A stretch of DNA of 64,000 nt, from positions 66,050,368 through 66,114,367 of the forward strand of contig NC_058337.1 in NCBI RefSeq assembly GCF_905475395.1. Reading direction: 5' to 3'. Shown here one piece after another: positions 1,940 through 42,199 of this stretch. The stretch is from Chrysoperla carnea. Lineage: Eukaryota > Arthropoda > Insecta > Neuroptera > Chrysopidae. Made by a program: the position numbers and the translations under genes. Position 1 is the stretch's first letter, and each line of letters begins with the position of its first letter. The notes below the pieces were generated by a model. The model saw only the letters and a list, made by a program, of their open reading frames with translations, ran no database searches and had not been told where the DNA came from.

Positions 1940-4900
1940 ATGACAATTATAACAAAACCAATTACTGAAAAGAAAATTGATAAGAATGGGGCGTTGCTGG
2001 AGAATGCTGAAAATATTGGAATAATTGTAAGTCATAATTATTTTTGTTTATTAAAAAAAAAAAAAACATTTCCATTGTTTTGGGTAGGTTCCATCTCTAG
2101 TACCTGTATAATACATTATCAGCTGTGCAATTACAAATATGAATAATAAATAATGGCGTAATAACTATAATTTTTCCATTTTATTTCCGTATTTGCAATA
2201 ATTAACATAATTAATGAACTTTGAACTAAAATTTATACATTAAACCCTTCATTTATCGAGTAATGTTTTTATTTAAGTTTTGTAAATAGGTATAAGTCAA
2301 TTGTTTTGAAAAGTAGTCATACTTAATCATTGGAGGATAAAATTTGTTATCTATGCCGGATTGTTATTTAATTATTGTATACAATCGTTATGTAAATGAT
2401 TACGTTACAAATTAATGCTTTTGTAAATTAACCGTTGTTGTAAATTTAATTATTGAAAAAACCTTGACAAATTCTATAGGGATTCTATTCTAATTACGAT
2501 CGATTTAACATATTTTCGATTTAATTAATTAAATCTTTATTCATTTCCGAGTTAAGATACAGTTAGTTATTTATACGAAAGCAGCGCAAAACCAACAAAT
2601 TTTGTAATTTTGTTTGATAAAAGTGGAATATAGTTTAAGGGATAAAGCTTACGTTTTACTTTTTGATATTTTAAAGAAATGGTCGAATACCTATGGTATC
2701 TTTTGAAATTGCGGAGATAAAACCTTTTGCTGATAGTGTAACACCCCTTATGTACTATCGATTTACAGTTAGCCGATGGCCGTTTATAGCAATGATAAAC
2801 AATACATATCTGGAACAAAATTGATAAATATTTTGGGATGAGGCGACGTGTGAAACAAAATTTAAGTAAAATTCTAAGACCCAGACCTAAACCATTTATC
2901 AAACCCTTAAAATTTTGTATTGATATAAATGGTGATCAGATTGTAGAATTAATACTAAACAAAATTATAAAACTTGATTGAGTGAAGTTTCGATTACTAA
3001 TTCTAAGAAGTGCAAAGAAGCTTCGATTGCTAATTCTAAAAAGTAATTAGGAATGTGTTAATATTTGGGTTTAGTAGATAACAAAATTGTAAAATTATAG
3101 ACATTTTAATTAATTGGATTAACTGTTGCCAGTACCTGAATAAAGTTAAATGGAAAGCGACAAATATTAATTTTAATTTCCGTGCTAAATTCATCAGTTT
3201 TTGTGCTGAATAAAACATAAAAAGAAAAGTCCGATAAACTTTCTTTCATCATAACTCTCAAACTCTCAAAAAGGAGTGTAATTTTTAAAAAGAATTTTTA
3301 CAAAGGAAATAAGTTTTTTTTTGTTTTATATTTGAAAAACAGTTTTTAATCCGATTACATCATATTACACCGCTGTTAACAACTTATCTAAAATAACTTT
3401 ATTTGCCTAAATATTGAAGATTTAAGATAAAAAAGTCAATTCTAAACAAACGAAATGAGCCTGCACCTTTTTATATAAAACTAACTAATGTATTAAATTC
3501 TCATGTTAGACAAAAATATCTTTATAGTATCCTTTCTGCCCCTTTCGTCAATGTCTCGTCTCTTCTCGTGAACTTGGGTCTTGAATGTCTCACCAGAATA
3601 TTGATTGCACTACTACATTTCTCGACAAAATTGTCTTCAGCCTCATTGTAACAACAGTAAAATAATGGAGTTCTTGGGTCTTACGATTCGGACCGAGTAG
3701 AGAATAGTTTTATTCGATTCGTCATGATTGAAGTTTAAAAAAAAAAAAAAAAAACATAATTTACCGAAAAGTAGGATCATCCAGCCAAACTAAGAGTCGG
3801 ATTGCGCCAGGCTTTGTTTAACTCGCTAATATCAAAATATACAGAAATACACATCGGATGAAATTTTGTTTAAAATTCCATGGAACTGTATACCCAAAAG
3901 TATACAGGTTGATAGTAAGACAGGTAGATATTCAGGCATAAAAATTTATGAACAATACATTCTAAAACTAGAAAGTACAAATTTTCTAATGAACTATTGA
4001 GTATCTAGGTACGATAATTTTTCGCAGAGATGATGCAGCTGTATAAAATTTTCATAAATTTTGTTTATTTACTTTAATTCTATGATATTTATCACAGGAT
4101 AGGTGATTGTGGTAAATAATTATTTTTATTTACTACAGAAGAGAGTTCTTTATACCCGACTGTCAAGAAAGGGTTATGTTTTTTCCGCGTATTTTGTATG
4201 TATATTTGTTATCGTATTTTGTATGTATTCTTTATTACCTCGATCTTCCAAGTGTCTGGATAGATTTCGAAGGTTAAAGTATCGTTATATTCGTCTGAAA
4301 AACCCAAGTGTCCATAGATTGGTGTTTGGAAAAAAAACAAAGAGCCGGATTTTTGACGATGAAAAGTAATAGTATTGATTGCTGTATCAAAATAAAGGAA
4401 ATCATAAAAGGATTTTACAAAAATATATAAAAGTCATACTTTTAAATTTAATTAGGAATAATTAATGCTATATTAAGTGCGGTATTATTGAATAGGTATT
4501 TGAAAATCCTAACCAAAAAGTGTAAAATAAAGAAATAAATTTAAAAAATCAAAAAACCCGTTTGCGTTAAAAACTGAAAAGAAAAAAACAAGTCAAGTAG
4601 TTTACTTAACTACTATAACAGTCGTGACCCATTTGAGCCGATAGAACGATTTGAGCTATATAAACTACTGAAGTTGTATAAGGATGAATTTTTGTTGACC
4701 AAATTTATTATGTGAATAAATTTTGCTACTGACGATGATTGCGTTGCAATCGAAACATCGATATTTAGCGACATGTAAGTCTGTTGTATGTTTTTTTAAT
4801 TGTATTTATTTAATAGAATTTCCTAATTTACAATTTTATTTCGAGTACCGTGGCATTTATTTCAATAAAATTTGTTTTTTTCCAGCTTCTATTTAACATA

Positions 4901-13900: not shown

Positions 13901-16900
13901 TCCTCGAAAATAAAATTTTTTCAGGGGAGAAACAATTTTTCTTTTTAAAAAATTTGTTTCAATATATGCAAAATGGAAATTTAATGCTGTTGTGGAATTA
14001 TTCGTAGGTTTTTTGAAAAATCGTAATCCAAATGGTGTCAACTATTTCTAAATTAAACTAATTTATGTTGTTTAGGTGGACGTAAAGGACGTTTTATACA
14101 TGATTTTTATGCAAATAAAACTGGTATTATTGATATCGATAAAAAACGATGCTTTGTTATGCCATTAAATCGTGGTATGGTATTACCTCCCCGATCATTG
14201 TTTGATTTAATACAAAAAATGTGGGATGGATATTATGAAGTGGATACTGAACGTGTGCGAGAAACAATGAAAGTAGTCACACCACCACTAACTGATTTAA
14301 AAGATGTTGGATCGTACATCAAGAATGAATGTAAAAATATGACTGTGTATCAGTTAGAGAAATATAACTCCACAGGTAAATATATTTAACATTTTTAAGT
14401 TGCCGGCGATCATAGCCTAGGATCCGAAAAAAATCTTCCTTATTCCTTTATCAAATTCCATGATTCACCCCTCATTTTCAAGTTTATTATGTCTAGATTT
14501 GATGAAAAACATACTTACGGTCTAAAAATGTATCGCTTAGGGAAAAAGCACGCTACACAGATATTAGGCAAACATGTTAGTTTTTACAGATACTCTCCCA
14601 ATAATACATATAATACTCAAAACATTATTAGGCAAACATGTTAGATTTACAGATGCTCTCCTAACATATAATTGCTATTTTGAATACATGTTTTCCTAAT
14701 ATTAACTTAAGAACTTTTGATTTGTTCATCACTTTTCTACGGAATTTGTTGTTTGTTGTTTTTAGCCACGGTTACACGGTAACCACGGTAACTACGGGAG
14801 CCGAATTCCTCGCGGGTCGAACTAGTAAATTTTAATTTATTAATAGAATACAAATTCCACTTTGTATTAAAGATAACGAGTTTAAGTTTAGAAAATACTT
14901 TTTTTACATTTTCTTATCAAATTTTACATACTTAAAGGGGTTTTAGTGAAATGATTCACTCAATAGATAATGTCTTAAACTTTAAACTTGTCTTTCTTTT
15001 CGAGATACTACATCTCAAAATTTGAAAAATCACAGTGGTATACTTGAAGATTCAAGGTGTTAATCTTTCAAATAAATTATTTTATACATAAATGAGGCAA
15101 TGCCAAACGCTATGTGTAAATTACTTATCCAATAGACAAGCAGCAGTTCAATTCTCCTTCAAGTACTCAGCTAGACTATACTTCTACTAGTTACTCAAAT
15201 TCCATAGGATCGAGCTTTATCGGCCGACTAGAATTATGCCATTACATTGAATTGAATTTGCTTAAGAATGCACCTTGTGTCCTAATTTGGTGACACACCA
15301 AAACCACCAGTGTGCAGAACGTCGCCAAATTAGCAACGAGTAACATACACAATAAGAGTAATTACGATTAGCTAATTCACACTGATGATGACTTCTTGGT
15401 AGTCGAAATACGTATTTATGTAATACAAAAATTGAACTAGGAAATTGGTGTAAAATCGAAATATCTTAAGAGTTCTCATCTTTGATAATATTTATAGAAT
15501 GTTAATATATTTCAAGTGTTTCGTCAATTTCCAGCAAGAAAACCATCTTTAAAAAAAAAAAAGAAAAATATTTTTCAAAAATAGATTAAGAATTTTTAAA
15601 ACTTTTGATAAAATAAAGGCTTAAATTTTTATAAAATTTGTTTTTTAGATGTTCTAAAAGACAATTATTTTGTTTTACTCATGAGCATAAGACGTATGTT
15701 AAATAATGGTGTGCGCCCTTCAAATAATTTTTTAAGAAAATATTTTCTAAAAAAATAAATTGATGGCATCTTTTTGGATGTTTAAAGAAAATTCTAAAAA
15801 AATAATTAAGAAAAATAAATTCAAAGTAGATACTTGGATGAAAATTCAAACTTTTGTAAGAGATTTTCATTTTTCCATATCCCACCATGAACCTTATTTA
15901 TTACTTTCTAATTAACACAATACATTTTTTGGAATTATTTAATTTCAAATAATATTTTAGAATTTTATTTTACTTAATTACAAACCATCGAATGTCTAAC
16001 AGTGACAGCAGGCACTCTTTAAAAAAATTTCTTCAGTATTTATTATCTTGGATAAAAAATCTTTCAAAAATTCAAACCTCGCGAAAATTTATTTAAACAT
16101 ATATCTCGTGATATTTATTGTTTTTTCATTATCATAAAACCAAAAATTTCTTATATAAGAGACTATGGAATTCTAAGAGTCCACATAATAATTTTGCATT
16201 CACAAATTCTGTTAATATTTTGCCAACAAAAAAAAACCTGATTAAAATGCGTGTTTAAAAATTCACCATTTTTTCTAACCGTAGAATAAGATAATCTCTT
16301 TAAATTTCACGTTCAGTTGTTTGTCACTTAATCACAAATAATAATTTGTTTTCCAAAATGGGGGACATAACGACATGTAATTTTAGTATGTAACGATTAT
16401 TGAGCACCTTTTTTATTGTAAATTTTTTATTGTTTTATTTTCTTGAACTCTTTTTAAGTAATTTGATAATTTGTATTTGAAAAATATGGTTTACTATTAA
16501 TAATATAGTTTTTGGAGCAAATTTTTCATAAGATTTTAAATTGAAAACATTTATAGAAAAAAAGATTTATCGTTTTTTTCAACAACCTGAGCAAAATCAT
16601 TAAAAATATAATCGATTAAGGTTATTTTCCGGAAAACTATAAATATTTAAAATTTAATCTTTTTTTTTTTTTTTTTTTTTTTGAGAAAAATACGTTTTTA
16701 CAATTAGAGCTACAACCTGAAAGTAATATTTCTATTTTTAATATTAACAAAATTAGGATATTTAAATTAAATCCGTTGTTAGTTGCTCTATCACGATATT
16801 TTTCGAGGAAATCTAATTTTCACAACCTTTCGATTTTAAATTGAAATCTTTTTTCGTATACAATTACTTTAAAAAAATTTTTGGCCAAAGTAGTAGAAAG

Positions 16901-19337: not shown

Positions 19338-22104
19338 TTACGTTCCTAAATCCGCAAAAAAATCTTTTCGATTCGTTTGTTTTGATGATGGTAAATTGTT
19401 AGTTAATTGTTTTTTATTTTTCTTCTCTTTCAAATTTGTTAAACGGAAATGTTCAAAATAAGATATATTCCAAAATTTTACTTCATTTCTAAACGAACTG
19501 GATGCAATTAGTGTTCCATCATTACAAATGTCCATGCACTCAACAGACAATTGATGTTGACCCACAATACCTAGTTGTCGATGTGGAAATAAATGTGTAC
19601 CGCGTAAAATACCATCTTCATTACCAGTTACAACAATATTTTGTGTAACCGGTATTATTTTGTTAATAGATTGTTTTGGTCCAGGAAATTCGTCACTATG
19701 ATATCCAAATTCACGCCAATTAAATAAATACATTTTGCCTTTGGATGTACTTGCTAATAATTTGTGACCATGTCGGAATAATCCTAGTGATGTGAATTCT
19801 TCATCGTATTCCTCAGATTGTAAGAAAAATGATCTGTAAAAATCAAAATTATTATTTTAAAATTTTCTTTCTACTCAATTATAAATAACACAGATCAACA
19901 ATCAATATTAATAATCGATACGCATAGAAATAAAGATTCATAAACGATTACTAAAATATTAAAACTTCGTTGTGATGTGTCATTTTTTATTTTAGAAAAT
20001 TCTGAAAAATTTTAATTTTATCATTGATAAAATTTGTTTTGTACAATTTGGACAAATCATTTTTCTATTTTTTCTACTGTGGACTATTAGTATGGTATAT
20101 GACTCTAAAAAGAATGTCGGTTCTTTGACTTCCAATATTAAAAGGAGCACTACAAAAAAATACACCTACCAGCTAACCAACCATGCTGTGTCTCAATGAG
20201 TGAAATATGGAAGGTATTTTCTCATTAATAAAATAATAAATAGCCACTTTTTAGTTTGCGCAAATTCTTATAGAATTTAGTTAATACTACGTTTATAGAA
20301 ATATTACTACAGAGTTTTCGCCAGTAAAAATTACCTGTTTTTTAAATCTATTGAGGAAATAGTTCCATCACCACTAGCACAAATCAAAAAAGTTTTGTTG
20401 TCATCGACAACCATATCGCTTATAAAATCATCATGCTTTTTTGTTTGATAAATTGGTGTCTTTGTATTGTTTCTCAAATCCCAAAATCTTATACGCCCAT
20501 CGTCATCACCTAGAAAATAATTCAATTCAATTCAAATAATTCAAAATTAAATTTATTAAAGGGTTTTGATCAACCGCTTTTGCAAAATCGGATTTAAATT
20601 TAAACTTTTTTATAAGTTTATCTGTCAAATTCGTTCTTGTTTTGTATCGGCTATATTAGGAGTATAATCTCGAATTTTGACTTTGAATTCGAAATTAGTG
20701 ATCGACAATAAAAGTAATAAACATGATTTTTTAACATCTAACTCTTAACACGTTAGGCACCACAAGGAGATTTTGCTGATCTTCTCTGATCAAGTGTGCT
20801 TGAGTCAATCAGAATTCATTATTAAAATTCTGGGTTCGTTTTCAATGTTTTAGGAATAAAAACACATTTATTACTTTTTAATATTTAAATTTGATTATCT
20901 CGATATCTTGAAATTAATAAAATTCGAAGTTTAGATACTAAACAACAAATTATTGTTTTATTACCTACACAACATCGTTATCTACAAGATGATTACTTAA
21001 CTTTAAATTTTTCAAAAACCACAGATTATACTAATAATTTGGAGATACTTTCCTGACGAAATAAAAATATTGTATCGTTAATAAATAATAACTCGAAAAG
21101 TTACAAATCGATCATGCAGAAATTTACAAGACTTGTTTTGTAATTATTAGCACTTGTCCTAGAATTTGAAACACCAAAGTTTTACAGTATCTTTATTATT
21201 ATTAAATACATCAAAGAAATAGTTTTTTGAACTTTGTGCGCAAATTACAGGTAAAAGGAACTATTTACACACTTCGATTTAGCCTCATTTGTTAGGAAAT
21301 TAAGACAGGAGCAAAACACCTAAGATATTTTTATAGTAAACAATTTACTAGAAAGGCGGACATTTAATCAAGGACATAAAACGGTAGAGATCTTATAGCA
21401 AATAAGACGAAATATTAAACGAGATCGGTTTTTCTACAAAAATTATTATTCCACAAGAAGAACCTTTTTATGCGTTCTTGAATTCTTATCAGGAATTTAT
21501 AAACAATTATAGTCCGTATTGATGATTTACTTGATTTATTTTTTATTTTCGAATAAATGATTTATGTTTTTAAACGATTTAATTTACCTGAAGCTATGCA
21601 ATCTTCATTTATCACTTGTAAGCAGTTAATCGGTACTTCATGCGCATCATCTACGAATGCTTTTAATTTTCCAGTTTTGACATCAGTGACCATCAACGTC
21701 CGATCTTTTGATGTTGAATATAATATATCACCTTCATCGTCGAATTCAATATCACGACATGCTTGTGTATGTAATTCCCATGTATCAATAACATTGTTTT
21801 CTTCATTCGAATATTTACAAACGCTTACATCACCAACAATATTTGCGACAGCAATAAGATTCTCTGTAGGGTGAAAACATAAATCGACAATATGATCTTC
21901 AAATTCTATATCTGGTGGATGGTTTCGTTGTTTTTGTTGTTCTTTCTTAAATTTTTTAAATATTTCATCTTCTTCTTCGTCTTGGTCATCATCATTCTCA
22001 GTTGGTTTTGTTGATTCGGCCTGGTCTTTTTCAAAATCTTCTTCATCTGTTGTTGATGCATTTTCGTCGAAACTTACGTCGGAATCACTATCAGAATCAC
22101 TCAT
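19338..22104 (-). CDS. WDR55: WD repeat-containing protein 55 homologue
   Basis: Three exons, 21588-22104, 20335-20509 and 19338-19833, join in phase with GT-AG introns into 395 residues; human WDR55 has 383. The N-terminus is highly acidic (SDSDSDSD, then EDE runs to residue 50). WD40 blades follow, with SKDRTLMVTD, DDDGRIRFWDLR, SGDGTISSIDL and SSFRNEVKFWNIS as readable strand motifs. The C-terminus is lysine-rich and ends near KDFFADLG, the tail characteristic of WDR55. Family knowledge: a nuclear/nucleolar WD40 protein needed for rRNA maturation and cell-cycle progression. The start is the first ATG of a serine/aspartate-rich leader. It is divergent from SepSecS across 6.8 kb of mobile DNA. 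Confidence 0.92.
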
Positions 22105-23110
22105 TTTTTACTTTTTTATTAGAAATAAATATTTGTTAATAATCTTTTAGGTTAAAAATTATTAATAAAACACGTTTTAATCATAAACATTATTATTATT
22201 GATATCGATAGTTTGCTATCTATTATTGAAAGTTCAAATAGAGGCGGGTTAATAAAAAAAGGGGGATATACGTAAATTCGCCTTAGGACCTGTAAAACGG
22301 TATTTACTTATATTAGTGACAAAAAAATATCAAAATTCATTACAAATTTGAAATTTATCTTAAGGGAGTAAGGTTATGCACTTGAAGAAGGTGGGTTGAG
22401 GGGAAGTTTCCAATGCTAAATGTATGGATTATGGAACTTCTTTGCCATTATCATTTTTAAAGAAAAAAATTTCATCGAGTGAAATTTTAATAATAATTGC
22501 CACACAAACATAAAAACCCTTTAATGTTATGAAAAAGTTAATAAATATTGCGTGATAATAATCTAAAAAATGAACTAGTTATCATATCGTCAAAAATCCA
22601 AAAATCTAACTGTTAACACAGATGTATCGCCTTATGATGCTTAATATACTTAAGCCGAATCTATACAAAACAAAGTAAACTTTGTCCGCCCAGAGCCCGC
22701 CACGGTATTTTAAATATTTTAGTTAAATTTATTACCCTTTCTTCTGAAAAGTATTTTTTTATTTTTGAGGAGAAATACTTTATAATAACATCAAGTAGCC
22801 AATAATATGTATATATTCATTACCGATACAATCTTCTATCTTCTGTTAATCAAATACATATTCCCTTTGTCATTTCACTTTTGAATACACGAACACTACA
22901 TATATATTCTGTCTCTCTCATTTACTTATAAACATATATTACATATCTCACTCATAACAAAATCACACAAAAAAAATAATACACACACACACATATAGAA
23001 ATAAATTTTTATTTATTTTTGAAACATTATGTTTTGTATTTTTTAACTATTGAAAGAAATATGATATGTATGGTACTTGTACATTTCATTTTACTGTCTT
23101 ATCTTATTAT
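22105..23110. other. intergenic, upstream of WDR55
   Basis: AT-rich. Contains a short (AC)n microsatellite at 22981-22992 and presumably the WDR55 promoter. No gene is seen. Confidence 0.5.
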
Positions 23111-28908: not shown

Positions 28909-31900
28909 ATGAATTCGGAATCGTGGAACTTAATAAAACAATTGTTACCAGAAACTTACGTTCAACAAGCCAACAATGCAGCGAATTCAAGAGAAAATAT
29001 AATTAGAGAATTTTTACAACACGTATATTTATATTTTAATAATTTTGAAGGTTCTTAAAAATTTATTTCTATTTATTTTTAGAGAAATTGGCCAAAAAAT
29101 GGATGGAAAGATGATTTAATTGAACAATTTTTAAATGAATTAGCATCAATGGATTCGAATAATTTTTCGTCTAATTGCGGATTGGGAGAACGTGAAGCTC
29201 GTTTTGCATCTGATATTGTAGCTAGGCGACATTTTCGATTTGGCCATGGAGTTGGTCGATCTGGAAATTTAACTGAAATTCAACCAAAAGCTGCAGGTTC
29301 TAGTTTAATGTCACAGCTAGTGCATTCAATGATTCAAGATAGTATGAAATTAATGGGTAAAATGAATATATTTTTATCAGTACTGTAAAACTTTAGTAAG
29401 TTAAATTGCTACACACATGAGTCAGCCTTTAAAGGTCTTATGTCATAGATCATATTTTAACGCGAATTCTTGCCCCTGCAGGTAGGGCTGCCAAAATTCC
29501 GATTTTGGACCGCAGTCTCCTTTTCGCGGCAAAATCTCCGGTTTTTTTAAAATAAATCCCTTATAAATAAAAATTTATTATATTCAAAAAAAATTGTAAT
29601 TTTTTCGGGAAAGCGATTTTTATTAAAGACGTTTCCATACGACTAAAAGGTTAGAGATAAATTTTCGAAGATAAAAAAAATACATCCATGGCTTTCACCA
29701 CTATCCTGTCCCCAGTCTTTTAACCTCTCCCGAAATTTAACTTTAGATCCGCGCCTAACGATCTCATAATGCCTTTTGCATTGAATAAAAAAATGATATT
29801 TCTGGATTATGCTTCGTAAAAGTCAATGCACGGTTTTATTTTTTTATTTTTAGTTCAATACTTCTAAAAAAAAGTAGGATGCCAATTATCACAAGAAAAA
29901 TAAATTGTATTTTAACTAAAATTAATTAACGATTATTTCTAGGTATTCAATCCAAATTAAAATGTTTATTAGTACCAATGGCCACTGGAATGAGTTTAGT
30001 TATAAGTATGTTAACGTTAAAACATCAAAGATTCAATAGTAAATACGTTATATGGTCACGAATAGATCAAAAATCATGTTTTAAAAGTATATTAACGGCG
30101 GGATGTATTCCAATTGTTGTAAATTGTGTTAAAGATGAAACAGGTGAACTTCAAACCAATTTAAGTGAGATTGATAAACAAATAAATGAATTAGGTGCAA
30201 ATAATATTTTATGTATAATGACAACGACAAGTTGTTTTGCACCTAGAGCATGTGATTCAGTAGAAGATGTAGCCCAACTTGCAAAAAACTACGATATACC
30301 ACACGTTATAAATAATGCATATGGATTACAGAGTACTTACTGCATGCATCGGATACAAACTGCATCTAAGTAAGTGTATAGACGTTAAAATATTTGTCCT
30401 TGCAAAAGGAAAGGCGCAATAGGGAAAATTCATGTATTTTTTTTATATTTTTAATTCATTGTTTACACCGTTATAACAAAGTAAAAAATATAAATACTGT
30501 TTAAAAATGCTGTATTTAAGTGTACAAAAATATTTAAAATACATTATAATTTTGAGATATTTAAACGCAGTTTTTTGGCGCTCTCTGTTGATGACGTATA
30601 AGTACGTGATCTGTCAATTTTTGACAGTTCAATGTATAATTTACACTTTAAAAAAATAAATTTACAACACAGAATTTATACTCGTTATTATTAAGTTTTC
30701 TAATCAAAAGTCGTAGAATAGTATAATTTAATGAAATACCATATAAAATGTAAGTAATTAATATCATACAGTATGTCAACAAATTTGACAAGCCCGTACT
30801 TTGATGTCACGTCCGTATAAAAATTTGAATTTCCGTTTTAGAAATTTTTAAATGCCCTCACTGAATTTGTACTTTTATTAATTAATTTTAAGTAATTAAA
30901 AAGATATTAATTACTAAAATAATGGTTTAGTTGAAATGTCCAGTCATCACGGAAGAAAAATATTTGAACCAAATTTAAATTTCATGAATATTCCCTATTT
31001 GAGCAAGTGGCTTAGGGTTGAAATTGGATATTATTGTAGTACTTCTTTGGGTATTTGATTGACTATTTGTACATCCTAGGAAATTAGCATGTACAAATAA
31101 TACATCGGTTCCAAAAGACTGCTATATTACTCAATTTTACTGAACATAATCGAAAAATTCACAAAAATAGAAACCAAAATTAACGAATACCAACATCGTG
31201 TATGGCATAGCGGATATATAAACTGCAAAGGAACTTCTTAGAATTTTATCCTCTTTATGACTATGCTTTTGGAATGCTTTAATTACGGTACACTCATAAT
31301 TTTAATTGATACTTCTTAATGCACATATCTATAACATGACAATTAAAAATCTTTTTTTCTAGGAAAGGGCGTGTAGATGTTTTTGTGCAAAGTACAGATA
31401 AAAATTTTTTAGTTCCAGTTGGTGCAACTATTATAGCTGGATATAATGAAAAATTGATTTCGGATATAGCTAGCATTTATCCAGGTACATAATCTTAGAG
31501 CAGGTCAATTTTAAGACAATTAAAATAAATTGTATTTTTTTAAGGACGAGCATCGTCATCACCAATGATTGATTTATTTATAACTATGCTACATCTAGGG
31601 CAGAACGGATATCTAGAGTTATGTAACGCACGGAAGCGTTTACACAATTATTTAAAAGAACAAATGACTATAGTAGCTGAAGAGTTTAATGAAAAAATTA
31701 TAACCACTAAACATAATCCCATTTCTATTGGTAAGTCTTCTAATTAGGGTAGTTAGTTATCCAAATGATAAATGCATACATAGAATGAACAAGGACAAGT
31801 TATGGGGTCGCATGAGTGTCCTTGTTCAATAACTCCTGAAATCGAGATTTAATAAAAAATCGGCAAATTTGAGCAAACAAAAAACAAAAACAAACTTTTT

Positions 31901-32323
31901 AATAGAACAAAGTCTCAAACGTATATTAGAAAAAATTCAAAACGATTCGCGTATGCTTTCTGTTAAATTAATTTTTTAATATTATTCTCTAGCTTCTATC
32001 TCTGTTGTTTATCGAAAATATTTAATTGTAGTACTCTTATTACCGGATTTTTTCCAGCTATGACACTAAAATCTATAGAAACCAAAAACTTAACTCAACT
32101 TGGATCAATGTTATTTGTGCGGAATGTATCTGGGACACGTGTTGTTAAAGCCACTGACATCGTAAATATAAGTGGATTTAAATTCATTGGCTGGGGATCT
32201 CATTACGATGACTATGGAAGTCCATATTTAACTGCAGCTGCGGCAATCGGCGTTCAACAATGTGAAATTGATACATTTATTAAAAAGTTACGTGATACTT
32301 TGAGTAAAATATCAAAATTTTAG
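28909..32323 (+). CDS. SEPSECS: O-phosphoseryl-tRNA(Sec) selenium transferase (SepSecS)
   Basis: Six exons, 28909-29022, 29083-29356, 29943-30369, 31363-31484, 31545-31730 and 32058-32323, join in phase into 462 residues (human 501). This PLP enzyme converts O-phosphoseryl-tRNA(Sec) to selenocysteinyl-tRNA(Sec) with selenophosphate, the last step of selenocysteine synthesis in eukaryotes. Seen: GNCGVGERE-like [70 protein letters not shown], and [11 protein letters not shown] with the PLP lysine at residue 285. All blocks are in the family order and no break is seen. The start is the first ATG, in frame with [12 protein letters not shown]. It is convergent with the homocysteine methyltransferase gene, 261 bases apart. 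Confidence 0.96.
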
Positions 32324-32584: not shown

Positions 32585-35500
32585 TTAAAAACTACTATTC
32601 AATTGATTTTGTTTATCTTCTTTCCATTTGATTAGTTCTTGTCGTATTTTCATAATTGTTGTATCATCTGTACGACAACATCCTCCAATCCATTTTACGC
32701 CCATATCTAGCCATGTTTTTACGTATTCACTAATTGGACGGCAAGTATTTTTCCCAGTCCATCTAAATAATTGATAAATATTTTAGAAAAGTAGTTTCCA
32801 TCATATTGTTCAAGTAAGTATTTTTTATGACATTTTAATGAAAATAGCGCGGACATGATTACGTTTACTCTCATAAAACGATTTTTCCCCAAAGAAATTT
32901 TAAATTGGTGATATTTCATCGACATTTGCAGATTTTGAACAACAGTAATGTAAGAGCTACTAGTGCAGCTCCTTAGCAGGAGCCTTGGTAAATATTTAAA
33001 TGATATTATTTTCGATAGGCATGGATTATTATTGTTAAATAAAAATCAATTTTCCATCACAAATAAGTTTTTTGTTTAAATTAAAGCTAACAGAGAGAAA
33101 CCTTTATTACAAAGAAAATGAACTAGTTAAATTTCGTATTAATAATAGAACTATACTAATATAGAATATCCTGTCTATTCAACTCAGTTTAAAATTCTAC
33201 CGACTGCGCAAAAATTATTTTATGTTCAAGAACTTTACTGAAAGGAAAAACCAGGTGGGCTAATGGATTATATTTTATAAAGGATGTTTTAAAAAAGTTT
33301 AATTTTATATTTTTTAAATAGTCCACATTTCTTATAGCTGCAGATTCGTTTTATTTGGCAAAAACTCTTGTTTGAAGCTTTTACAAGCTCTTTGAAGCTC
33401 TTAAAAGTAGAAGCAGACGTTGAATGTGAAGATGAAATTTAATTTATTTAATTTTAGGTTTTTGTATACCTAAATAACATAATATTAAAATTACAGACAT
33501 ACTAAAATACTTTTAAAATTTAGGATTATTACCTGTACATTTCGCAGTACTAAACGCAACCACTACCGCCAGCCAGATGGCCCAAGCTCTAACTGAAAGA
33601 GCGAGAAGAACAATATATCATAAAATCAGCCATAATAAAATTATTGTTTTGCCGACGTTGCGAGCTCCTATATCATAATATTGGAAACAAAAAGCAAGGA
33701 GAGAGAACGAGTAGGAGCTGGTTTTTTATGATGGAACACCCCATGTTTTTTCATTTCAAATCTTACAAGTATTTTAATTTAGAAAAAGTCTCTAGCTCAT
33801 CGGGAAGTTAGTTCAAAAATTCTAACCAGAGAATATATCGGTAAAGAATAGTCTCTGATGCTAACATTCATTTGAGTTTACAAATAACCTAAAGGTCATA
33901 ATCTAAATTCACAGTCACCAATATATACTATATTTTATCTATGGATCATTCTTCGATATTTTAATATTTTAACGAATTATTCAGCTTTATATATATATAT
34001 TATTGAAACATCTGTATGTAAATTATTTTGTCTTACCCATATTGTTCATCATATTCTTCACCACTATTCGGATAAACAATTAGTGGTATTGGAATCGATT
34101 CACGATTTTTGTTGATTCCATAAATTAAATCGTTTACAAATTTCGGTGATAAACAATTCACACCAACAGCAACCAATTGTTCTGGATTCAAATTATAACA
34201 AAAATTTGCTGCTGTTTGGAAATTTTCACCATTACTTAAACAAACGTTATCCTAAAACCGATAAGGTATCAGAAAGAATTCAAGGGCAATGTTTGGAAAA
34301 ATGTTACCTTACAACTAAAAGATAGCCAGGCTTTTATATTCGGATAGTTTTTAATTAATTCTACAAGTGTTTCGGCTTCTTTGAGACATGGTATGGTTTC
34401 TAATGCAAGTAAATCAACACCGGCATCTATTAAGGCGTCAATACGTTTTGCATGCCATGTTGCTAGAAAAGTTTTAGAAACATGTTGTTCATAATTTCCA
34501 GTGTACTCTGAACCATCGTGAAGACATGCTCCATACGGACCAACAGATCCAGCTATACGTATCTCTACATTTTCTATAGCAGGTTTTTTTATGTTAAGGA
34601 AAAATTTTTAATTAGTTATTTAAATTAATATAATTACTTAATTCTGGATGAGTTTCCTTAAACTTTTCAATTGCAGTTCTAGCTAAGTCTACAGCACCTT
34701 TAATCAAATTTATACTTCCAGTCTCAGTTTTATTTAAATGTTGCATGAATCCTTCTATGCTGGCTTGATAGGTAAATGTGGAAATTACGTCCGAACCAGC
34801 TAGAATAATAACAACTGGTTGAGATTTTGTACAAAACTGTTAGCAGCTATCACAACAATCTAATTTTATTGATGAAAGTTATTTTTAAACGAAAAATTTG
34901 ATTTATCTAAATATAAGTTATTTTAAATCAGAATTAAAAGATCGAAATACATAAAACGCATCAAGTATAGTGTGGTACATGACAAGTACGTTCATTTGAG
35001 TTTATAAGTGACATATTTTACGATGAAAGGTGGAAGTTCTCAGTACTCATTCTGGTCAATTGCATTTGGCCATATCTTATCGGAGAATTCCAACCATTTC
35101 CTCATTAATATTTCTACGTGGTAATCCATTACTGGACTTTATCAACTTTGTGTCGTCTTTTCTATTCAGCGTATCTTCCAAAAATATATGAACGCCAGAG
35201 TGATAACATTAGTATATATTCTTTAAAAATTTGATTTATTTTACGACGATCCATTTTTGACATAAAAAGTTTAAAACAAACGCGCTCGGTGAACCCTTGA
35301 ACAAATTAGCTTACCAATTAAAAAAAAAAAAATCAATAAACCCATTTTTATTCAATTTCATTGGAGTTTGTTGAGAAATATTAATAATTACACTTGGTAT
35401 TTCAGTAAAATAAGTGGAGTAAAAGATATGATGAATATGAAATCAACTCAGTGGCATAACAAAAAGTTTTGGAACCTTAACTTATTTGCTTACAATATTA

Positions 35501-36472
35501 TCTTTAATATGATTAGCGCTAACTTATTTTTATCTATAAGAGCCAGTGGTCGGAAGACTCATTTTTCTAGCCGGTAGTACCTACCGAATCGATCACGTTA
35601 GAAACGTGAAAAGCATCGACCAAGCTCAAAGTTGTAGTAATATGTTGTAAAAGAGTATTAGAGATTGATGTATTATATACATTGAGTAAATTGTGAATGG
35701 CTTGTTATAATTGTATGTACATTATTTAAAGTGCACAAGGGACAAAATAATAAAATCCTTTTACATGCCATGATTTTTGGTATTAGATGGCTCAGGCTAT
35801 TGGTTTAATATATGACTGTTTTTGATGACACATGCTACTTGGTTTAATAAATAACAGGACTATTGCCTCTCCATATTATGTTATATATGAATTTAAAGAA
35901 AAAAAACAAACAATTTAGGATGTTATAACTAAGATGAAGTTTATAATATTCATAGTTTATTAACACGGTTACTATAAGTTTAACTTGGTAGAAGTTTTAC
36001 GTGACTGATTTAATAGGTAGGTACAACCGGTTAAAAAAAGGAGTTACCATTTCATGTATAGCAAGCATAAATATCATATGATAATAAGTTTAAGAGAGTA
36101 ATTGACGAAAATAAAAGCTTTGTTTAAATACCGCATGTCTACCGGCCACTCTAAGCCAATTAGATCATTCGAGTTTTGTTTTTTTTTTTCATTTGGAAAA
36201 TCCATTCAACCCTATTTTTACGCCACTATAACACATTAATAATTAGCTAAACATTTTTTTCAACAACTACATCTATATTATTACGTAACAGTTAATATTA
36301 AACCTTCTAAAAAATCCAAATGCGCTTGTATTATTATCTCAGGATTTGTTTCTAAGAATCGAGATGTCCATAAAGGATCTCCATCAGGATTCACAGCTCC
36401 ATGTTTACTTATTTGCATCGAAGCACTACCATCTATTATTGTAATAACAGGAAAATCATTTGTAACAGACAT
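32585..36472 (-). CDS. homocysteine S-methyltransferase
   Basis: Five exons, 36304-36472, 34638-34799, 34308-34573, 34037-34251 and 32585-32762, join in phase into 329 residues, normal for the family. The enzyme methylates homocysteine to methionine, probably using S-methylmethionine or AdoMet as donor, in the cytosol. Seen: IIDGSASMQ near the N-terminus, AGSVGPYGA, LALETIP, VGVNC with a zinc-binding cysteine at 232, VYPNSGEEYD, and IGGCC with the other two zinc cysteines at 299-300. Odd: the usual TNTYQAS motif reads TFTYQAS, so a normally conserved asparagine is phenylalanine. Intron 4 (32763-34036) and intron 1 (34800-36303) exceed 1 kb. It is divergent from ARPC5 across 1.55 kb. Confidence 0.93.
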
Positions 36473-38024: not shown

Positions 38025-41000
38025 ATGGCAAAGAATACATCAAGTTCAGCATTTCGAAAAATAGATGTTGACCAATATTGTGAAGAAAATTTTAAAGAAG
38101 ACGATGGTGATCAAAGTGGGAATACCGGACCCGACGAGAGCGAAATTATCAATCTACTAAATCAATATCCTTTTTAAATTTACACAATTACACATTATTA
38201 ATTTTTTTGTTTTTGTGTTATTGTATGTCACTTTAATTGTCTTAATTTATCGTAGTGGGTATTGTAGTATGTGGTAATGGTAATTAAATTCTCAAAATAC
38301 CAAACTCGAAAGCGGTTTTGTAGTTATAATTAACAATGATTTACATTGCCGAAAAGCCCAAAATTCTCAAACATCGAATGAACGACTTATACAAAATTAA
38401 AATTCCTCTAAGGCATATATAATACCTATTAATGCATTTAGTTCTAAATACATTACTCATTTTGTATCAAATTTCAAAAACTATACTATTTACGACTCGA
38501 AAATACTTTATATCAAATAAAATATATTTGGAGACTTATATACCGGGTGTCATTTTAAACAATCCAGATAAAAATTTCAGCAACAAAGGTTTATTGGGTT
38601 TTATTTTATAAATGTCCCAAGTAAAGCTGTTATACTTGAAGAGGGTCATTTCACCGAAAGCGTAAATTTAATATCGACTTTTGGGCACAGAGCACTCTTG
38701 GTCTAAGTCCTAGGGACCCACTTTCGGTACCCCTCTTTTGTCTGAATATCGAGTTGCAGAGTACTTAAAAATATACTCTAAAATCGAAGAGTATATTTTA
38801 AAAGATGTAGTGGAAAATTAGAAATTTTTTCTTTATAAAATAACAATGTTTGTTCGAAATATTTTAAATACGACAGAAATCGAAAGTAAAAATCTTAAAA
38901 TACGCATATGTAAAACACATAAAGTATGTGTGATGCACTCAATTTTTGATAGTAACAAATAGAAAAAAACTTCAAATAACAAAGTTTATAAAAAAAAATT
39001 ATTCTTACCAACTTATTTTGGAAAAAAAATTTTGGAATCCATAAATTTTTGCGTCTGGTTTCCACTGTTATTATTAGATTTACAAAAAAAAAAGGTAGTT
39101 TGTTATTTTACAAAGAATAACTTTCTAATTTAAACTTAATTTATCTTCTATTTCGGTTATGAACTTAAGTTGATTTCTAAAAGAGTAATAAATGGTATAT
39201 GAACGAAAGAGGAATCAGAGAATTTTTTAAAAATTTCATTACATTGTTTTACAACAAATTCTCGTCTGATCGGCCTAAAGTTTGTATAATCTATAATCGA
39301 TCAGTATCCGCCATTAATCGATAAATGATCGCATACTGCCATTTGAATTGCATTGCCGACTCATTAATGTAAATTCAATGGAGTTATTAGTCTACGAATA
39401 TTCATTCCAACAACACACAGATTGTAAAAGGGAAATAATGTTTACAAATTTTTAGTTAAATCAGACGAGAGATGTTGTTGAATCCATTATTAACCTCCCA
39501 GAAAGTTCTCCGCTCTGTACTTACACTAATTGTAACTATAATGTTATATAAACATCATTTAAAAGAGCTAAATCTGGTATATTACGTGTTGGACCTACCT
39601 AAATAAAGACTACAAAATATGTCAATTTGAGAAATGTATGTTCAGTAAATTCAATGTAAAAAGAAACAAAATATGAAGGAAGATAATGAAGATAATTACA
39701 TTATTTTTAGAAAAATTTGCTAAAGAGTTTTGGCATTTGAAAAGGACACTCTGTAACAGAATAAACCAAATTTGGATTCTCAAAAGTTAATTTTTTCCGG
39801 AAATGTTCTTTTCAGAGCTATGCATGGTTAAAACTAAATTACCTAATGTGTTACAAAAATTTTTAGATGTTAGATTCAGTTTATTTATATTTAAGAAAAC
39901 GCAATTTAGTGTTTTATTACAGATCTTAAAATTAAGAAAACAAAAATGTGATAGTAAATTTTTCACGAACACAATTAAAAAGGGAGATAAAATATTAATT
40001 TTTTTTTTAAATATTTGAATATATTTCCTTAACTTTGTATACAGGAAAAAATATCGAAGCTTTAAAAGTAGTGTTAAGTAACGCTCCTTTAGGATCAAGG
40101 AATCAACAAGTAAAGGTATAAATTCAATTAACACGAAACAGGGTGGTGATCGAAAATGATTTTTAAATTTCTCTTAACTGTCCCACTTATGATTTTGTCC
40201 TTCAAATATTCTGTATGCCCTATTAATCCTTAGCCACAATTTAAGGAGAAATATCTTGTAGGATAAATTAGTTACAGAAAAAAAGTTTCAAACAAAAGCT
40301 ATTACGATCTAAATAGAACATTTTAAAAATAATTTGACTTTGCTGACCTTCAGATTCATAAATGATAACAGATAGAAGATCATTTTAATCTCTTCCCTAC
40401 TACAGTCAGCCCAAACTTGGAAATAAACATATACATTTTTTTCGATTCAATCTTATTTAAAACAGTGGCATAATGGTATAACGAAAGAAAAAATTTCACG
40501 TTTTTTTTTTTTAATGTAATTATTTAAATCGCTCAAGAGATAGAAAAAGTAGATTGGTATATGCTAATATGCCCAAGAAGAGCGTTTATGCAAATTTGAA
40601 TAATATTGAAAAGTTTGGACAAAAAAGGCTTTTTTTATAAACGTTTCTGTGCTTAAAATTTTCTTCAATAGTTGCCTGAATATGTGCGGATATTGCGCGC
40701 TTGATTAATTGATCGGTAACATGCGAAATATCGGTCGAAAAATAGGTTGTGAAACATTTAGAAATACTATATTAATTATTTTTTCAATTTTTTATCTAGT
40801 ATATTTGCTTATAGTTGATATTTTTATTATAAGTGAGGTCTTAGTAATTGATGGAGTTTTTTTCTTCACAAATTTTAGTATAACTGTGCTAGAAATTTTA
40901 AAGTTGTTTCCAAACTACACGCAAAATCGTTTTTTTACGGACATCCGTATTATACTAGAATACTTAGTCAGTATAACGTATGTGTAGACAATTGAAAAAA

Positions 41001-42199
41001 TAAACTCGCTCTTGAAACATATAACAATGCGTCCAAAACAACAATTTCCTTGTTATAAATAAAATTTTTAATGCAAAAAAAATACGATGAGTGATGAACT
41101 GCAGCACCTTCAGTAGGTTGACACCTACATATTGAACTTTTTTAAGATGCCCTTCTTTAAGCTCAACAGCTTATTTGTAATATTTTTTTATATTTACCTT
41201 ACACTACAAAGTGATCTTTAATCTATTATCAGTTACGAATCTTAGTCAAAATCAAATTTAAGGCGTTTTTAAGATGCCCCTCTTTAAGCTCAACAGCTTT
41301 TGTTTGGAACATTTTTTTATATTTAACTGATTCTACGAGGTATTTCTGACTGTAAATGGCGACTAAGATGATTTTTTGTACATGTATATTCATATTTCTA
41401 TCGGAAACGACGTTATTTTAAAATAAGTAGGAACAATTTAAATTTTAATCACACTAGCAATATATTGGCTAAAAATATATTTTTGTATTATATTGAGTGA
41501 TCCATTATAATAGAGCCATACATTTTCATTCCAAGGGGTCCTTTTTTTTAAAAAGTGTTTCCTACCATACATGTGTCATGTGGCGGGGGGAAATACTTTT
41601 CCGGCATCAGTTTTTTCATAAGTGGAGTGTTTCAGTAAGTGGCGTGTAAAAGGAAGGTCAACATTTTTAAATGAAAATTCATATATCTACATTTTTAAAT
41701 GGAAATTCATATTTCTCAATGAATATTCATATTAGCAAATTGGTTTTCTTTATGCAAAAAAATAAAACTTTTCTGAAAAATTGCTGCTGTAGAAAATATT
41801 TTTTATTTTAAAATATTTAAATGCACCTTTCATACAAAATTTTCTGGCTCAATTATATTGAATAATTCTGCATATAAGTTCCTTGACTTTTCGAGTTCGA
41901 TTACCAGCCTATGAAAATAAGTACACCCCCTCTCATTAATTTGAATTACTTTTTAGGATAATGCATTAAATTTAACATTAAAAGTACTACTATCCATTAA
42001 ATCATCGTCACAAATTGAAGAAGCTGTTGCAGCATTAGATATTGAATTAGTAGATGTTTTAATGAAATATGTATATAGAGGATTTGAAGTACCATCAGAG
42101 GGTAAAAGCGCTCATTTATTGTTGTGGCATGAAAAAGCATATAGTGTTGGTGGTGTTGGAAGTATTGTTCGTGTTCTTACCGATAGTAAACGAGCTTAA
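38025..42199 (+). CDS. ARPC5: actin-related protein 2/3 complex subunit 5
   Basis: Exons 38025-38164, 40043-40115 and 41957-42199 join in phase into 151 residues, exactly the human ARPC5 length. ARPC5 is the smallest Arp2/3 subunit and helps assemble the complex that nucleates branched actin. Seen: an N-terminal [18 protein letters not shown], an acidic GPDESEI stretch, helices [10 protein letters not shown] and [20 protein letters not shown], and the C-terminal [19 protein letters not shown]. Odd: intron 1 is of the rare AT-AC U12 type and is described separately. If GT-AG is forced, the reading frame runs into a stop three codons past the true junction and the gene is mis-called. Intron 2 is an ordinary GT-AG intron. 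Confidence 0.96.
38165..40042 (+). other. U12-type AT-AC intron of ARPC5
   Basis: The intron starts ATATCCTTTTT at 38165, which is the U12 donor consensus, and ends TTGTATAC at 40042. A perfect U12 branch-point motif, TTCCTTAAC, lies at 40025-40033 with its second A ten bases before the acceptor, inside the narrow window minor introns require. Joining CA|A gives [12 protein letters not shown], which aligns without gap to vertebrate ARPC5. No GT-AG choice gives that protein. It therefore needs the minor spliceosome (U11/U12/U4atac/U6atac). It also holds a decayed repeat at about 38543-38880. Confidence 0.93.
41138..41340 (+). repeat. short tandem duplication in ARPC5 intron 2
   Basis: TTTTTAAGATGCCC followed by TCTTTAAGCTCAACAGCTT occurs at about 41139 and again at about 41266, a period of about 128 bases, with moderate divergence. 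Confidence 0.6.

Follow-up and report, generated by a model that had tools for sequence, protein, structure and literature searches.

The Arp2/3 subunit 5 gene (ARPC5, p16-Arc) at this locus is interrupted by an intron that begins with AT and ends with AC, which raises the question of which spliceosome would remove it and how old the intron may be. The preliminary description of this DNA read it as an AT-AC U12 intron. Here, that reading found support in the motifs, in their position, in the reading frame, and in homology, and ARPC5 intron 1 very probably belongs to the AT-AC subtype of U12-type introns, which would be removed by the minor spliceosome. The whole stretch of DNA analyzed, hereafter the window, is 64 kb in length with a GC content of 28.9%.

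The ARPC5 gene and its surroundings

A complete ARPC5 coding region, with start and stop codons, was found on the plus strand in three coding exons, giving a product of 151 amino acids. Coding exon 1 (38025 to 38164, +) begins at M1 and ends two bases into codon Q47, in an open frame with a start codon, and was aligned to ARPC5 chains from residue 1. Coding exon 2 (40043 to 40115, +; 73 nt) and coding exon 3 with the stop codon (41957 to 42199, +) were placed by frame and by alignment to ARPC5 chains. Between them lie intron 1 (38165 to 40042, +), which is 1878 nt long and of phase 2, and intron 2 (40116 to 41956, +), which is 1841 nt long and of phase 0, with ordinary GT-AG ends (GTATAAAT...TTTTTAG).

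The 151-amino-acid product matched the Pfam profile P16-Arc (PF04699) at 1.7e-46, with residues 9 to 150 covering profile positions 1 to 149 of 150; the domain thus makes up essentially the full length of the product, which identifies it as ARPC5 (p16-Arc). When the PDB chains were searched with phmmer, the best match was 1k8k_G (4.8e-44, residues 1 to 149). Eight distinct chain sequences named ARPC5 or ARPC5L were matched, seven of them at 6e-41 or below and 3dwl_G at 1.8e-14. Both exon junctions were crossed without lost or added residues, and the C terminus was conserved. For the exon 3 peptide (one of the three exons), no relatives were confirmed in viral_contigs or genome_contigs.

Several other features were observed in the window. 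A homocysteine S-methyltransferase gene (32585 to 36472, −) lies head-to-head with ARPC5, and its exons matched PF02574 in five pieces that span positions 2 to 282 of 283, with the first of them just below the curated cut-off. A gene for SepSecS (selenocysteine synthase) occupies 29083 to 32320 (+), and its exons together cover PF05889 positions 1 to 388 of 389. As described in an excerpt of PMC4561486, selenoproteins were lost in Hymenoptera, Lepidoptera, Coleoptera (at least Tribolium), the D. willistoni lineage, and the pea aphid; given these loss lineages, the host, if an insect, probably belongs to a lineage that keeps selenoproteins. A BRICHOS-domain exon is located at 14057 to 14389 (+), and for two exons on the minus strand (19338 to 19856 and 21562 to 22107) the best Pfam match was WDR55, each piece alone scoring below the model's curated cut-off. 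Within ARPC5 intron 2, the region from 40229 to 41367 holds a direct repeat of approximately 71 bp (86% identical) as well as an inverted pair (approximately 160 bp, 71%), which are perhaps the remains of a mobile element.

Splice signals of intron 1 and the position of the junction

Intron 1 starts with ATATCCTTT and ends with TTCCTTAACTTTGTATAC. The preliminary description had presented the donor, branch, and AC signals of this intron as perfect, and all three were exact in both motif and coordinates. At the 5' splice site, ATATCCTTTTT (38165 to 38175, +) matches the rule for U12-type donors, RTATCCTT (PMC2846911, in part), at every position, and the copy of ATATCCTTT at this donor is the sole one in the window on either strand. 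The putative branch site, TTCCTTAAC, is located at 40025 to 40033 (+), and the consensus of U12-type branch sites is TTCCTTRAC. Counted from the last intron base, its first A lies at 11 nt and its second A (40032) at 10 nt, the latter as originally claimed. The optimum for this distance in U12-type introns is 11 to 13 nt in the relevant text of PMC3584512, where such introns are also said to have no distinct polypyrimidine tract ahead of the 3' splice site. As judged by eye, TTTGTATAC, between the branch motif and exon 2, contains no distinct polypyrimidine tract. The terminal AC (40041 to 40042, +) is fixed by reading frame and homology. The AG that follows at 40043 to 40044 is exonic and, when paired with the donor at 38165, leads out of frame; AT-AG combinations of termini are disfavored in general (PMC3584512, same text). 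In the window, no further copy of intron 1 was found at an E value of 1e-6. Minor introns show a bias away from phase 0, and the phase 2 position of intron 1 is in line with this bias.

The position of the junction was examined by enumerating donors from 38030 to 38239 against acceptors from 39800 to 40061 with GT-AG, GC-AG, AT-AC, or AT-AG ends, keeping the frame into exon 2, a design that leaves a hidden micro-exon possible. Twenty-four frame-keeping junctions were obtained (4 GT-AG, 1 GC-AG, 8 AT-AC, and 11 AT-AG). Only one of them, 38164/40043, joined the exons without loss or gain of residues relative to ARPC5, which agrees with the earlier statement that only this junction gives the conserved protein. 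The product of this junction was free of gaps there when compared with both ARPC5 (SCLRQGNMTAALQ) and ARPC5L (GLLRQGDMLRAFH) chains. When intron 1 was kept, the frame stopped at 38177 after ..NQYPF, at 50 residues.

Chance expectations for the motifs were obtained from 300 first-order Markov simulations of both strands of the 64-kb window. RTATCCTT was observed 4 times versus 5.5 expected, and ATATCCTTT once versus 1.67 expected. For TTCCTTRAC with an AC or AG 8 to 15 nt downstream, there were four matches at three places (two matches share the motif at 40025) versus 0.90 expected. With counts so close to chance, the motifs alone prove nothing. For the set ATATCCTT...TTCCTTRAC...AC within 5 kb, 0.07 was expected per window and one was observed, exactly at the exon-exon junction. 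When the junction was assumed to be fixed by homology to within 15 nt on either side, the expectation for donor plus branch site there was approximately 1.4e-8. What carries weight is that motifs, frame, and homology coincide, rather than the motifs by themselves.

Other U12-like motifs in the window were considered and rejected. Additional RTATCCTT matches at 3527 (+), 47985 (+), and 13007 (−) were at chance level in number and were not taken as signs of a second U12 intron. Another copy of TTCCTTAAC, at 34601 (−), lies 20 nt from the AG of a 64-nt GT-AG intron of the homocysteine S-methyltransferase gene, whose donor, GTAATTATA, is not U12-like; this is probably an ordinary intron. The presence of the motif there indicates that a branch motif alone misleads in such AT-rich DNA. 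A branch-like motif at 41879 was also set aside; it precedes the acceptor of ARPC5 intron 2 by approximately 70 nt, and the donor of that intron (GTATAAAT) is not U12-like.

Predicted route of splicing and competing readings

We infer that intron 1 is actually spliced and that a minor spliceosome is present. In the proposed mechanism, U11 and then U6atac would pair with the donor ATATCCTTT, U12 would pair with TTCCTTAAC and leave the branch adenosine bulged, and the AC 10 nt downstream of the branch A would serve as the 3' splice site. With its second A left out, TTCCTTAAC is an exact reverse complement to GUAAGGAA, a segment of the U12 snRNA. The reverse complement of the donor contains AAGGA and AAAAGG, segments of U6atac and U11, respectively. 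A search of the 64-kb window for snRNA genes gave no Rfam match at the gathering threshold. Since retention of intron 1 leads to a stop after 50 residues, this gene would need minor splicing to yield a full-length Arp2/3 subunit 5.

A different product would result if the major spliceosome used GT-AG sites inside exon 1, yielding a shorter protein and making the U12-like motifs coincidental. Four in-frame GT-AG pairs do exist (38044/40044, 38107/40044, 38107/40059, and 38116/40044), and in human ARPC5L, defective U12 splicing led to the use of cryptic U2 sites with the deletion of 27 residues (PMC3958305, in the text excerpted); this cryptic use implies that comparable short ARPC5 products can arise. 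However, each of the four pairs deletes a conserved stretch aligned to ARPC5, the GPDE segment included, and the coincidence of donor, branch site, and AC at the conserved junction would be expected only about 1e-8 times, so we regard such splicing as a very improbable origin of the main product. Removal of the same AT-AC intron by the major (U2) spliceosome appears even less probable. An intron with AT-AC termini need not be of the U12 type, as noted in part of PMC3584512, but the donor ATATCCTTT and the branch motif TTCCTTAAC are both complete, the latter 10 nt from the intron end, and by eye no long polypyrimidine tract separates TTCCTTAAC from the AC. There is likewise hardly any chance that the three exons belong to a decayed or misassembled copy with no functional gene: the 151-codon frame is complete, with its start, its stop, a conserved C terminus, and lossless exon junctions.

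Minor introns of ARPC5 and AT-AC introns in other animals

For Drosophila melanogaster, 19 U12 introns are given in Table 2 of PMC2831892, so the earlier remark that insects keep few such introns is true of this species. ARPC5 is absent from that table, and the intron is therefore either absent or not cataloged in D. melanogaster. A term search of main texts returned no mention of ARPC5 in PMC2831892, PMC7644725, PMC2952598, PMC7367187, or PMC2846911; two Drosophila minor-splicing papers without ARPC5 in the main text count as a point against the U12-type reading. The preliminary description had further stated that AT-AC introns are rarer still, which turned out to be species dependent. The AT-AC share of U12-type introns is low in Apis (8.6%) and Anopheles (8.3%), in keeping with the statement, but reaches 47% in Drosophila (PMC7367187, in part), where 9 of the 19 introns in Table 2 of PMC2831892 are AT-AC (the text of the same paper says eight). 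According to that text, conversion to the U2 type is less frequent for AT-AC than for GT-AG introns.

The preliminary description had also mentioned a minor intron in vertebrate ARPC5 genes, and for human cells this is borne out in print. In HeLa cells, the ARPC5 minor intron was normally well spliced and extremely sensitive to a decrease in U6atac (PMC3728624, in part). The paralogue ARPC5L is likewise a U12-intron gene, and its defective splicing in patients activated cryptic U2 sites (PMC3958305, in part). The ASPIC paper (PMC1276783) was rejected as a source for the ARPC5 U12 intron; in the part concerned, ARPC5 is only named as a gene and its intron is not called U12-type. In the portions of the literature searched, no position was found in print for the minor intron of human ARPC5.

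We consider it fairly likely that intron 1 lies at the same codon and in the same phase as the minor intron of human ARPC5 (and ARPC5L), that it dates to the bilaterian ancestor or earlier, and that it was kept as an AT-AC intron here and lost in the Drosophila lineage. An ancient position is plausible, and we infer descent in common with the minor intron of human ARPC5. If the human position is shared, the supply of Arp2/3 subunit 5 would depend on minor splicing in both animals, and the locus would add one more retained AT-AC position for tracing the loss of U12 introns in arthropods. In addition, gene finders limited to GT-AG introns are expected to shorten ARPC5 here because retention of intron 1 ends the frame after 50 residues. 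A survey of U12-type introns in Insecta has reportedly been carried out by Janice et al.

Three known systems come closest. One is the minor intron of human ARPC5 in HeLa cells (PMC3728624), which is in the same gene and of the same minor-spliceosome class; the portion cited does not give its intron number, subtype, or codon position. The U12-type intron of human ARPC5L (PMC3958305) is of the same class in a paralogous gene, and the excerpt likewise gives neither its position nor its subtype. The AT-AC U12-type introns of D. melanogaster share the subtype and the machinery, and eight of the nine AT-AC rows listed for them are U12-type in humans too (PMC2831892, Table 2). Overall, ARPC5 intron 1 is a clean instance of a well-known class, and a minor intron in this gene has already been described from human cells.
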